Shown one piece after another: positions 29,860 through 34,443 of a stretch of 51,200 bases of DNA. The stretch comes from Verrucomicrobiaceae bacterium. Lineage in GTDB: Bacteria > Verrucomicrobiota > Verrucomicrobiia > Verrucomicrobiales > Verrucomicrobiaceae. The stretch's first letter is position 1; each line of letters begins with the position of its first letter. The stretch is taken from the NCBI GenBank assembly GCA_027487315.1, contig JAIYDW010000032.1:1-51200 (forward strand), in the 5' to 3' direction. The translations under genes and the position numbers were made by a program. The notes beneath the pieces were generated by a model, which saw nothing but the letters and a program-made list of their open reading frames with translations, ran no database searches and was not told the origin of the DNA.

Positions 29860-31821
29860 TCACGGCGCCGCTTGATCCGACACCGTCCGAAAACCCCGCG
29901 CCGGACTCCTCTCCTGCGCACTGTCGGCAAAATGTCGACTCGTCAGCAGCATGTCCCCTGGCGGATACGCATAGTGCCCGCCCCGCGCCACCGGCACCCG
30001 CACATCCGGATAGTCCGGGTGCTCCGACCACGCCTGCCCGCGACCCTCCCCGGCCGTCCATTCCTGCACATTCCCCGCCAAATCCTGAATCCCAAACGCA
30101 CTCACGTCCTCCGTCTTCCGGTCAACCGGCGCCCACAAATTGAATCCATCGACCTCCCCGCCCTTCACCCCTTTCGCATCGTAATCCCCACCCAAATTCG
30201 CCGCCGCTTTCCGCTCCTCTTTCCCCCACGGATACACACTCCCGGACACCCCGCGGGCCGCCTTCTCCCACTCCTCCTCAGTCGGCAACCGTTGCCCCTT
30301 CCACTTCGCATACGCATACGCATCCCACCAGTCCACTCCTTGAATCGGCGTCTCCAGGGAGATCTTCTGCCCGTTGACCGACGCCCCGGACCGCGCCGCC
30401 GCCAGCAAATCCTTCCACCCTTCCGGCGCATGCCCCGACTTCGTCTTCGGCTGGTCAGGATGATCAAACGACGTCCCCTTGCTGCCCACCGCCTGCAAAA
30501 ACTCCGCATACTGCCCCAGCGTCACCTCCGTTCGACTCATCCAAAACGCCGGCAACGTCCGCTTCTCCCCCTTCTGATACTGAAACGGCCCCGCAGGAAT
30601 CAACACCATCTCCGCAGGTCGCGCCTCCGCCACCTTCTGCGTCGGATTCCCCGTCAGCGCCCCCAACGCCGCCACCACCACCAGCGCCACGCCCGCACTG
30701 ATCCACACCCACCACGGAATCGCCCGCTGCGCCGACCCCTCATACTCCGCCGGATGCGCCTTCTCGATCCGATGCTGAATGCTGTGCTCCCTCATCGCCT
30801 CCCGCACACTCGTCATCTCTTGCAAAAGACTGGCCCAGTCATGCTTCACCAGCATCACCGACTGCAGCAAACCCGATGCCTTCCCCCCCGAAACCCGGCC
30901 CCTCAACAACTCCAAAAATGCCTCCACCGTCTGCTTCGACGCATCCCCCTGATCGTCCCCCTCCGGCCGGAAAATGTTCACCAAACTCGCCTGATGATCC
31001 TCGTCCAAATACACATCCCAATCCGAAATCTCGCGGTAAACAAAACCCCGGCTCGTCGCATGCTCCATCACTTCCGCCACCCCATAGATCAGCTCCGCCA
31101 CCGCACGCTCCCCCAACATCTCGCCCTTGCCATAAATCTCCCGCAGTGACCGCCCCCGCGGCACCTCCCGCGTGTAGTAATGATATCCCCCCTCCTCGCC
31201 CGCCTCATACAGCGGCGCGATTCGCGGATGGTTCAGCGACGCCTTGGCCCGCACCCGCGCCGTAAACAACTCCAACTGCTCCGGCACCTCCGCCCGGTCC
31301 GGCCTCAAAACCACCAGCCCCACCAACCGCTCCACCCCCTGCTGCACCGCCAAATACGTCTCCGTCATCGAGTCCTCCCGCACCAGGTCCTGCACCACAT
31401 AGTTCCCCATGTGCGTCCCCGCCCGCAGCAGCGGCCCCTCCGCATCCATCACCGGCGGACCCGGCGCCTTCAAAACCGCATTCACCGTCTCAATCAGCTC
31501 CCCCGTCTCATACGGCGTGTCCAGCAGCACCGGTGCCCCGGCCAGCAACCCCTCAAACCCCTTCAAATCAAATCGCGTCGTGAACAACACCCGCACCCCG
31601 GGAAACCGCTCCCGCGCCGCATCCCTCAACTCAAACCCCGTCGATCCCCCCTCAAAAACCGCCTCAGTTACCACCAAATCCAAGACCCGCGCCTCCTTCG
31701 CCAGCCAAACCATTGCCTCCCCAACCGTCGCAAAATCCTCCACCCCCCAGCCCCGCGCCATCAAGGCCGTCGCCCGGGCCAACCGGAGACTGTCATTCGA
31801 ATCGACAAACAAAGCTTGCAT
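29860..31821 (-). CDS. degenerate receiver - pseudokinase - membrane helix - FGE-like protein
   Basis: A 653-residue protein. Residues 1-118 have the receiver fold, but the phosphorylated Asp is Glu53 and the conserved Lys is replaced in the TPYE turn. Residues about 135-340 have a Ser/Thr kinase fold lacking catalytic residues: the ATP Lys of VALKVL is Val (VGLVVLRPD), HRD is YRE, the catalytic Asn is Asp and DFG is NIF. One membrane helix lies at about 369-389. Residues 403-648 form a formylglycine-generating-enzyme-like (C-type lectin) domain with EVTLGQYAEFL, GQRLPTEEEWEKAARG, DLAGNVQEW and GGHYAY. The protein has no cysteine, so it cannot be an active FGE. It probably senses or scaffolds across the inner membrane. 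The upstream gene ends 32 bp before it. Confidence 0.88.
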   Translation of the reverse strand: MQALFVDSNDSLRLARATALMARGWGVEDFATVGEAMVWLAKEARVLDLVVTEAVFEGGSTGFELRDAARERFPGVRVLFTTRFDLKGFEGLLAGAPVLLDTPYETGELIETVNAVLKAPGPPVMDAEGPLLRAGTHMGNYVVQDLVREDSMTETYLAVQQGVERLVGLVVLRPDRAEVPEQLELFTARVRAKASLNHPRIAPLYEAGEEGGYHYYTREVPRGRSLREIYGKGEMLGERAVAELIYGVAEVMEHATSRGFVYREISDWDVYLDEDHQASLVNIFRPEGDDQGDASKQTVEAFLELLRGRVSGGKASGLLQSVMLVKHDWASLLQEMTSVREAMREHSIQHRIEKAHPAEYEGSAQRAIPWWVWISAGVALVVVAALGALTGNPTQKVAEARPAEMVLIPAGPFQYQKGEKRTLPAFWMSRTEVTLGQYAEFLQAVGSKGTSFDHPDQPKTKSGHAPEGWKDLLAAARSGASVNGQKISLETPIQGVDWWDAYAYAKWKGQRLPTEEEWEKAARGVSGSVYPWGKEERKAAANLGGDYDAKGVKGGEVDGFNLWAPVDRKTEDVSAFGIQDLAGNVQEWTAGEGRGQAWSEHPDYPDVRVPVARGGHYAYPPGDMLLTSRHFADSAQERSPARGFRTVSDQAAP

Positions 31822-31853: not shown

Positions 31854-33092
31854 TCAACGTCCAGAGCGAAGGGTTGATGGCGCAGCCAATGTCGAACCCG
31901 GGCTCTCCTCGAGCAACTCCCGGGGCTCGGCCACCACCGCCTGAAGCCGGTCCTGGTAATACAACTTCACCAGGTATCCGTGAAAATCACGCCGCCCATG
32001 ATCCAGCTGCTCCTGGGCACTCATCGGCGGCAAAAAATACGTCACATCCAGCAGCTCCATCCCCTCCCCCGCCCAGTCCACCGGAGACGCCACCCAACTC
32101 GACACCGGCGGATCCGCCCGCGTCGGCTCCACCTTGGTCCCATTCACCCGATCGTAAAAAAACACATCCACATTCACCGCTTCCGGCTCGATCGGACTCG
32201 CCCCCACTCGCACGATCGGTATCCGCAAGGTCCGCTTGTCCCCCTTCGCCACCGCCAAATCCCTCACCACCTTGCACCCGCCCACCCCCAAAGCCGCACC
32301 CGCCTCCGACGTCACCTTCGCCGTCGTCATCTCACTCCCCCCCAACGGCATTCCCCCCACCACATTCGGCTCCGTCAAAATCGCCGCCGGTCCTGCCGGA
32401 AACACCGCACTCGGCGCCCCCGCCCCCAAACGCTCCAAACGCTGCTGCGCCAACCCGTAAAACATCCCCGACACCGCCTCCCCCAGCCCCACGATGCGCT
32501 CCCAATACTCCCGCGCCTTCTCCGTCAACCCCATCTGCTCATAGGTCAGCGCAAACTCTTTCAACACCGCCGGATGATTCTGATCCATCCCCTCCGCCGC
32601 CTTCAGCAACTCCATCAACCCCTCCGTCTCACCCCCGGCCCGCAACTGCGCCACCGTCTGCAAAAGCTCCGCCACCTCCGGGTCCGGCGTCGGCAAACTC
32701 GCCACCCCACCGCCCATCGGCACCACCGGAGCAGCCCCCAGCCCCGGCTCCGGCGTCTCCCCGGCCAGCATCCCCGGCACCGGCGGCATCAACCCCGAAA
32801 CCACCCCGGTCACAGGCGATCCCTTCACCCCCGCCAACTCCCCCGGCCGCGGTGGCATCGACAATTCCGGCACCTCAACCTCCCGCTCCACCTGCCCCCC
32901 CATCGACCCCGGACGCTCCACCAAAACCTCCACCTTCGGCCCCTTCCCCTCCCCCGACTCCTTCACCGCCTCCCACGCACTCCACCCCAACAGCCCCAGC
33001 TGCAGCACCGCCAAAGTACACAACACCCCCAAAGCAGCGGTTTGAACCCGCCCCGTATCTTTGGCCAATAGGTTGGATTCAGGGCGCGCCAT
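31854..33092 (-). CDS. membrane-anchored protein with proline-rich linker and TPR-like helices
   Basis: A 412-residue protein. A short basic N-terminus leads into one membrane helix (TAALGVLCTLAVLQLGLLGW), then about 100 Pro/Gly/Val-rich residues that look extended. TPR-like helices follow near 165-235 (AVLKEFALTYEQMGLTEKAREYWERIVGLGEA). The last 150 residues are beta-rich (LRIPIVRV, VNVDVFFYDRVNGTKVEPTRADPPVSSW, VTYFLPPMS). The helices and beta part are outside the cytoplasm if the N-terminus is inside. It begins the trio with the pseudokinase gene and is divergent from pabB, 55 bp away. The function is unknown. Confidence 0.7.
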   Translation of the reverse strand: MARPESNLLAKDTGRVQTAALGVLCTLAVLQLGLLGWSAWEAVKESGEGKGPKVEVLVERPGSMGGQVEREVEVPELSMPPRPGELAGVKGSPVTGVVSGLMPPVPGMLAGETPEPGLGAAPVVPMGGGVASLPTPDPEVAELLQTVAQLRAGGETEGLMELLKAAEGMDQNHPAVLKEFALTYEQMGLTEKAREYWERIVGLGEAVSGMFYGLAQQRLERLGAGAPSAVFPAGPAAILTEPNVVGGMPLGGSEMTTAKVTSEAGAALGVGGCKVVRDLAVAKGDKRTLRIPIVRVGASPIEPEAVNVDVFFYDRVNGTKVEPTRADPPVSSWVASPVDWAGEGMELLDVTYFLPPMSAQEQLDHGRRDFHGYLVKLYYQDRLQAVVAEPRELLEESPGSTLAAPSTLRSGR

Positions 33093-33147
33093 TGGGATTC
33101 GTTGTCGTAATACTGAGGTATGGTACGGTGACAGACAGATTGTGTCA
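33093..33147. promoter_or_regulatory. divergent promoter region of the pseudokinase trio and pabB
   Basis: A 55-bp gap between divergent starts. It contains less GC-rich sequence (GTCGTAATACTGAGGTATGG). Promoters for both units must lie here or overlap the gene starts; the boxes cannot be fixed with confidence. Confidence 0.3.
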
Positions 33148-34443
33148 ATGATTCACGGCTCCCACTCCGAGAAGATCCCCCTCAGCTCCCCCGCTGCGGT
33201 CGGGACCGCTCCGCCCTTTTCCGGCTTCGTCCAGCGCCCCTGGCAATTCCCCCCCGAAACCCTCGCCCGCCAGCTCGCCCACCTCCCAGGCCTCATCTGG
33301 CTCGACAGCGCCCAAACCGGCCCCGGCGCCGTCTCCCTCCTCTCCGCCGCACCCCTCGAAATCCTCACCGGCACCCTCGATCACGACTGGCACCGCGTCG
33401 AATCCCTCCTCCAACGCCACGCCCAACCCTACCACCCCGACTGGCCCCTCCCCTCCGGCGGCCTCTTCGGCTGGGTCGGCTACGACCGCCACTTCACCTT
33501 CGGCCACTACCCCCACGCCCTCCTATACGTCCACGACACCGCCACCTGGTTCGAATCCGGCCACCTCTCCGACCACTTCACGCCCGCCCCCCTCCCTCCC
33601 TCCACCCCTCCCACCCTCCACTTCACCCCCCAAACCACCCGCGAAGACTTCACCACCAGTGTCCGCACCGCCAAAAACTACATCGCCGCGGGCGACATCT
33701 ACCAAGTCAACCTTTCCTACCCCTGGCAAGCCGATTGGCCCCCACACGCCCGCCCCCTCGACAGCTACCTCCACCTCCGCGCCGTCTCCCCCGCCCCCCA
33801 CGCCGCTTACCTCGACCTCAACGGCACCCAGGTCCTCTCCGCTTCCCCCGAACTCTTCCTCCGCCTCAGCGACCGCCGCATCATCACCCGCCCCATCAAA
33901 GGCACCCGCCCCCGCTTCCCCCACGACCCCGCTCGCGACACCGCCGCCCGCGCCGACCTTCTCGCCTCCGCCAAGGAACGCGCCGAGCTCCTCATGATCA
34001 CCGACCTCCAGCGCAACGACCTCGGTCAAGTCTGCGCCTACGGCAGCGTCCAAGTCCACGAACTCTGGAAAATCGAAGCCTACCCGCAAGTCTTCCACCT
34101 CGTCTCCACCGTCGAAGGCCAACTCCCCGCCTCCGTCAGCCACAGCGCCGCCTTCCGCGCCTGCTTCCCCGGCGGCTCCATCACCGGCGCCCCCAAAAAA
34201 CGCGCCACCGAAATCATCGCCGAACTCGAGCCCCATCCCCGCGGCCTCTACACCGGCGCCATCGGCGGCTTCGGCTTCAACGGCGAAAGCCTCTTCAACA
34301 TCGCCATCCGCACCGCCATCCGCCAAAACAACACCATCCACTTCCACACCGGCGCCGGCATCGTCGCCGACTCCGACCCCGACCTCGAATACCAGGAAAC
34401 CCAACACAAAGCCGCCGGCCTCCTCCTCATGGGCCAACCCTAA
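33148..34443 (+). CDS. pabB: para-aminobenzoate synthase component I
   Basis: A 431-residue enzyme of the chorismate-utilising family that makes aminodeoxychorismate for folate. The N-terminal region has the typical GGLFGWVGYD. The chorismate-binding core has KNYIAAGDIYQVNLS, ASPELFLRL, RPIKGTRPR, MITDLQRNDLG and PGGSITGAPKKRA, all hallmarks of PabB/TrpE. PIKGT with Lys favours PabB over TrpE, whose residue is Ala. The start ATG 33148 is chosen because the earlier ATG at 33061 lies inside the divergent gene. The glutamine amidotransferase and lyase partners are not adjacent. Confidence 0.9.
   Translation: MIHGSHSEKIPLSSPAAVGTAPPFSGFVQRPWQFPPETLARQLAHLPGLIWLDSAQTGPGAVSLLSAAPLEILTGTLDHDWHRVESLLQRHAQPYHPDWPLPSGGLFGWVGYDRHFTFGHYPHALLYVHDTATWFESGHLSDHFTPAPLPPSTPPTLHFTPQTTREDFTTSVRTAKNYIAAGDIYQVNLSYPWQADWPPHARPLDSYLHLRAVSPAPHAAYLDLNGTQVLSASPELFLRLSDRRIITRPIKGTRPRFPHDPARDTAARADLLASAKERAELLMITDLQRNDLGQVCAYGSVQVHELWKIEAYPQVFHLVSTVEGQLPASVSHSAAFRACFPGGSITGAPKKRATEIIAELEPHPRGLYTGAIGGFGFNGESLFNIAIRTAIRQNNTIHFHTGAGIVADSDPDLEYQETQHKAAGLLLMGQP

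Follow-up and report, generated by a model that had tools for sequence, protein, structure and literature searches.

A conserved operon in Verrucomicrobiales encoding a predicted membrane-spanning pseudokinase with receiver and FGE-like domains

The window, a stretch of 51,200 nucleotides, carries an operon of three genes on one strand in the order c1, c0 and c2. The middle gene, c0, encodes a receiver, a kinase fold, a transmembrane (TM) helix and an FGE-like domain. The coordinates of these features are listed in Table 1. A chorismate-binding (pabB-like) gene at 33061-34443 on the plus strand is divergent from the operon.

Table 1. Features of the c1-c0-c2 operon in the window
Feature	Position	Strand	Basis or remark
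c1: TM anchor, disordered Pro-rich linker, TPR, C-terminal beta-sandwich, 412 aa	31854..33092	-	directly upstream of c0
c0: receiver, predicted pseudokinase, TM, FGE-like protein	29860..31821	-	653 aa, ATG start; domain searches and model
Pseudo-receiver domain, residues 1-122 (D7, S8, E53, T82, T102)	31456..31821	-	PDB match, model, residue alignment
Glu53 codon, phospho-Asp position	31663..31665	-	Glu in 45/45 family orthologs
Predicted pseudokinase domain, residues 130-345, C-lobe shortened	30787..31434	-	Pfam, model, fold alignment, residue check
Val170, beta3 (ATP) Lys position	31312..31314	-	residue alignment
Glu264, HRD Asp position (Tyr-Arg-Glu)	31030..31032	-	residue alignment
Asn282, DFG Asp position	30976..30978	-	126 orthologs: Asn 118, Ser 8, Asp 0
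Transmembrane helix, residues 370-389	30655..30714	-	model, TM scan
FGE-like (C-type-lectin-type) domain without active-site Cys, residues 400-650, probably periplasmic	29872..30624	-	Pfam, fold alignment, TM scan
c2: exported protein, AxA-Q-type signal peptide, 292 aa	28883..29761	-	directly downstream of c0

The FGE-like domain was the clearest match in the Pfam search, with residues 403-647 of c0 matching FGE-sulfatase (PF03781) at E 1.6e-41 and 143 bits against a gathering cut-off of 23.3. Residues 157-276 gave a Pkinase match below threshold (E 8.4e-5). The receiver also fell under the Pfam threshold; its residues 3-116 matched the solved receiver 6tne (E 6.7e-5), and c0 orthologs gave full-strength Response_reg matches (E 5.8e-17 and 1.6e-15). 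A sequence search of the PDB with c0 returned PknA/PknB kinases, FGE/SUMF2 and receivers. The AlphaFold model of c0 had a mean pLDDT of 90. In VIA-align comparisons, the kinase part aligned with PknB at Z 19.2 over 208 residues, consistent with a bilobal kinase fold, and the FGE part aligned with human FGE, EgtB and PorK at Z 23.8, 25.6 and 22.5, respectively. The receiver was absent from the fold-match list because the kinase and FGE parts filled it. A single TM helix was predicted in 88 of 93 c0 proteins, but the charge bias across the TM helix was only modest (3.3 versus 2.3 K/R). The receiver and the kinase fold would lie in the cytoplasm and the FGE-like domain in the periplasm.

Catalytic residues were then checked by residue alignment. 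The initial annotation had described c0 as a fusion of three domains that each lack catalytic residues, and this description was confirmed. The receiver carries Glu53 and Thr102 instead of the phospho-Asp and the Lys, its acid pair is D7/S8, and Thr82 is kept. In the kinase fold, Val170, Tyr-Arg-Glu264 and Asn282-Ile-Phe replace the ATP Lys, the HRD Asp motif and DFG. Arg189 stands at the alphaC Glu position, and no glycine loop is left. When the same procedure was applied to three active kinases, two of them from the genome of the window, it gave back the Lys, the Glu and the catalytic-loop Asp, although the DFG column was unaligned in two of the three. Therefore, the losses in c0 are not an alignment artefact. 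Only about 75 residues separate the DFG site from the end of the domain, so that the activation segment appears shortened or missing. The count of Cys was zero both in the FGE-like domain and in the entire protein.

The kinase motifs were compared among 126 distinct orthologs (104 rows with one contig counted twice, plus 13 and 10 new sequences). The HRD motif was intact in none of them, and none had the DFG Asp. The Ser found at the latter position in eight orthologs was confined to a fast-evolving Akkermansia-like group. The beta3 Lys was present in 17 orthologs, 12 of which also had the alphaC Glu, and some relatives of c0 had a glycine-rich loop. The expectation that the replacements are common to relatives thus held for HRD and DFG and failed for the ATP Lys. 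Since no ortholog had an intact HRD or the DFG Asp, the kinase fold was probably dead already in the common ancestor of these lineages, and the residues of the ATP site would have been lost later and stepwise. As far as sequence can tell, c0 is a membrane-spanning pseudokinase, as had been proposed, with the fold and the TM helix present, the essential motifs gone and the orthologs alike. An active Hanks-type Ser/Thr protein kinase was rejected, because the beta3 Lys, HRD Asp and DFG Asp are gone although the fold is present.

Total Cys in the relatives of c0 ranged from 0 to 10, and the zero-Cys state is particular to some members. In the surroundings of the FGE active site (columns 617-628), no Cys was found in any of 58 orthologs. 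An FGE enzyme was rejected, since the catalytic Cys pair is missing in c0 and in these orthologs. The own genome had 16 FGE-sulfatase domain matches. A variable protein of a diversity-generating retroelement was also rejected, since the own assembly (256 contigs) gave no reverse transcriptase (RVT_1) match.

The partners of c0 were conserved. Among 60 neighbourhoods in the order, c1 adjoined c0 in 57 and c2 in 40, and the remaining neighbours were variable except for pabB, which took the same place in 27 loci. Every genome of the same order in the sample had c1. Of 142 order genomes, 138 had c2, with few exceptions as a single copy, and across the class c2 occurred in 137 of 188 genomes; it was present even where it stood outside the operon, as in three genomes of the set. 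One genome (G101) had two copies, on contigs C204 and C365. An AxA-Q-like signal-peptide cleavage site was found in 33 of 38 c2 proteins, and no Pfam or NCBIfam family matched c2. The fold search with c1 gave weak TPR-type matches and nothing convincing for the beta-sandwich, which is not proof of a new fold. At nine loci in other classes of the phylum, distant c1 relatives had an N-terminal FHA/YscD-type domain before the TM helix and TPR, and this end is presumably cytoplasmic. In the class of this window, c1 has no FHA domain.

An Amidase_3 gene came after c2 at loci from four families of the order and, beyond the order, from at least three others. The neighbourhood survey found none beside the operon in the window's own family. 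The role of c0 is better indicated by its conserved neighbours (c1, c2 and the Amidase_3 gene of many lineages), which the initial annotation had not mentioned, than by c0 alone. We put the chance that c0 acts in a cell-wall or envelope process at slightly below even.

With c0 as the query, almost all genomes of the family gave a strong match, and most of the order (143 genomes) gave a recognisable one; the order apparently includes Akkermansia muciniphila and Verrucomicrobium spinosum. The named c0 loci of the GTDB collection belonged to Verrucomicrobiales, Akkermansiaceae and Chthoniobacterales/Spartobacteria, and the operon including c0 occurred in about six further families outside Verrucomicrobiales. 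Between two congeners, dN/dS was 0.089 for c0 (kinase 0.096, FGE 0.047), 0.20 for c1 and 0.036 for c2. The FGE-like domain was the most conserved part of c0, with a mean column conservation of 0.57. The three genes belong to the core of an entire bacterial order, and we found no name or function for them.

The middle gene was altered or missing at a few loci. In one family outside the order, a lone receiver-DUF4388 protein took the place of c0 between c1 and c2 (L144:6866-7543 and L277:4903-5952). At another locus, L145, the middle gene was missing and c1, c2 and the amidase were kept. At L250:4003-4514 (genome G077, contig C70), a receiver piece and an FGE-like C-terminal end stood in different frames between c1 and c2, which may reflect an internal deletion or an assembly error in a possibly metagenome-derived genome. 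c0 is thus not an absolute requirement: most of it appears to have been lost from one genome, and part of another family does without it, with c1 and c2 retained in both cases.

The receiver differed between families. Glu occupied the phospho-site in all 45 proteins of family f1, which we take to be Verrucomicrobiaceae, and two of these had the receiver Lys. In sister families, the site held Ser, Gly, Ala, Asn or Thr. In Akkermansiaceae, the receiver domain of c0 was gone and the rest was retained; therefore, the receiver is dispensable for the core function. The receiver was often canonical (DD, D, S/T, K) in other orders of the class, as at six loci of the survey, and was sometimes followed by DUF4388. 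A tree of the kinase and FGE parts largely tracked the families, and the outside-order sequences clustered with a support of 0.99. The direction of change was read with the other orders as the outgroup, because long branches affect the midpoint root. A metagenome bin labelled Akkermansia muciniphila clustered with family f4 and not with Akkermansia, and is probably mislabelled.

The initial annotation had suggested that Glu may lock the receiver on. This fits well, because Glu was found in every protein of the family and the canonical Asp often in other orders. Glu53 may accordingly be read, with some hesitation, as a phospho-mimic that fixes the active state; it may also be merely structural.

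The arrangement of c0 was compared to known systems. YukC/EssB, a TM pseudokinase unable to bind ATP, interacts with FHA domains, and an FHA-pseudokinase contact is known for YukC/YukB (PMC9600267). The cytoplasmic pseudokinase of YukC/EssB, about 200 residues long, lacks the P-loop, VAIK and catalytic loops and precedes a single TM helix and an outer domain; the protein works by binding partners, FHA domains included. From the model and the TM scan, c0 appears to share this order of pseudokinase, TM helix and outer domain. However, YukC/EssB has no receiver, its outer domain is not FGE-like, and it belongs to a secretion locus (type VIIb), whereas c0 has conserved neighbours other than those of T7SSb, namely c1 and c2 plus Amidase_3 in some lineages, and its outer domain is not of the EssB type. 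YukC/EssB was not among the best PDB sequence matches shown for c0.

CwlM belongs to an amidase family. In Mycobacterium tuberculosis, a comparable system consists of the kinase-homology domain of MurJ with FhaA and CwlM, and an FHA-pseudokinase contact is known for MurJ/FhaA (PMC6180346). The likeness to c0 lies in a membrane pseudokinase that has an FHA partner and a link to peptidoglycan synthesis; c1 relatives in other classes bear FHA, and in many lineages Amidase_3 comes after the operon. However, MurJ is a multi-pass flippase and c0 is predicted to have a single TM helix. In contrast to the CwlM/MurJ system, the amidase next to the operon looks exported, and c1 of this class has no FHA.

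The Hanks-type kinases PknB, PknA and StkP share the fold of c0 and are its nearest sequences (profile E 2e-25), but in c0 the catalytic motifs are gone, the C-lobe is shortened and the periplasmic part is FGE-like, not PASTA. With FGE, SUMF2, EgtB, PvdO and PorK/GldK, c0 shares the fold (Z 21.7-25.6) and the Pfam family PF03781; it differs by the absence of the active-site Cys pair, seen in all 58 orthologs, and by its fusion with a kinase fold and a TM helix. c0 scored below the NCBIfam GldK cut-off (57.6 versus 350 bits). Response regulators share the receiver fold, and orthologs from other orders are canonical in this respect, some with DUF4388. The receiver of c0 differs from them by Glu, Ser and Thr for the phospho-Asp, the second acid and the Lys, and it is tied to a membrane-spanning protein instead of a DNA-binding or enzyme output. 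A TM pseudokinase scaffold and a pseudo-receiver are each of a known kind; a protein that unites them with a periplasmic FGE-like domain and lies in such an operon was not found described in the literature. Nothing was found there on such a pseudokinase in Verrucomicrobiota or on an FGE-type protein of Akkermansia.

c0 is very likely a conserved non-catalytic membrane protein that belongs with c1 and c2. Its chemistry is disabled, it is near-universal in the order, it keeps the same partners, and an amidase is often adjacent; therefore, c0 is probably a scaffold or envelope switch and not an enzyme. Our main reading, to which we give a probability of about 0.5, is that c0 acts as a non-catalytic adaptor anchored in the membrane, which a phospho-receiver gated in the ancestor and which links the cytoplasm with a complex in the periplasm, probably for the remodelling of the cell wall. 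In the ancestral protein, a phosphorylatable receiver, with DUF4388 in some lineages, would have stood in the cytoplasm beside a kinase fold without catalysis. The single helix would cross the inner membrane to the periplasmic FGE-like domain, and c0, c1 and c2 would assemble at the inner membrane and in the periplasm into a complex, which probably controls a process of the cell wall or envelope. Control by phosphorylation would have been given up in the order Verrucomicrobiales, where Verrucomicrobiaceae fixed Glu at the phospho-site, sister families replaced the phospho-Asp by other residues, and Akkermansiaceae dropped the whole domain.

The direction of the signal is a separate matter. Because outside-order relatives have an intact cytoplasmic receiver, the signal may run outward, and we tentatively place its ancestral start at this receiver. 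A fuller version, in which c0 is a transmembrane response regulator, is somewhat unlikely as a whole. Here the receiver would act inside-out through the never-active kinase fold and alter the periplasmic FGE-like module, which with c1 and c2 would control the peptidoglycan amidase or the envelope; Glu would have become a fixed switch later in Verrucomicrobiaceae, and Akkermansia would have removed the switch and kept the machine. The opposite course, in line with the initial annotation, is an outside-in sensor, whose periplasmic FGE/C-type-lectin-like domain would bind a ligand, for example a glycan or peptidoglycan fragment, with the dead kinase and the receiver relaying a conformation inward to cytoplasmic partners. 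The strong conservation of the FGE-like domain is consistent with ligand binding, and so is the fold search, in which a treponemal variable protein (2y3c) shared the FGE-like fold. Treponemal variable proteins of this type bind diverse ligands. However, the intact receiver outside the order suggests input from inside, and Akkermansiaceae lost the receiver without an obvious replacement output domain, so that this course is unlikely.

The same FGE-like domain could be a building block of a trans-envelope machine, comparable to the PorK/GldK ring protein of type IX secretion and anchored by c0 and c1. The fold alignment with PorK and the resemblance of c0, c1 and c2 to binding modules argue for such a structural part, as does a GldK model match at E 1.3e-15, far under its cut-off. 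However, PorK is a lipoprotein and has no kinase part, and neither a secretion ATPase nor a channel gene was found among the conserved neighbours; we consider the machine improbable. Residual non-canonical activity or nucleotide binding in the kinase fold of c0 would agree with the relatives that have the beta3 Lys, the alphaC Glu or the glycine-rich loop, but c0 itself has none of these, nor the HRD and DFG Asp, and no obvious conserved substitute residue was found; such activity is very improbable. The loss of catalytic residues in all three domains might even suggest a decaying, functionless relic of an active signalling kinase. This reading is largely refuted by purifying selection on c0, together with its near-universal presence in the order and its long-term synteny, and its probability is close to nil.

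For V. spinosum, a saturated transposon library and targeted mutagenesis exist, and the main text of the essential-gene paper mentions neither kinase, sulfatase, formylglycine nor TPR (PMC12283558). Across the c0 orthologs, the receiver forms a natural series: canonical, then fixed as Glu, then without a phospho-site, and finally absent, with the dead kinase retained throughout. Therefore, the roles of the pseudokinase and of the pseudo-receiver can be addressed directly.
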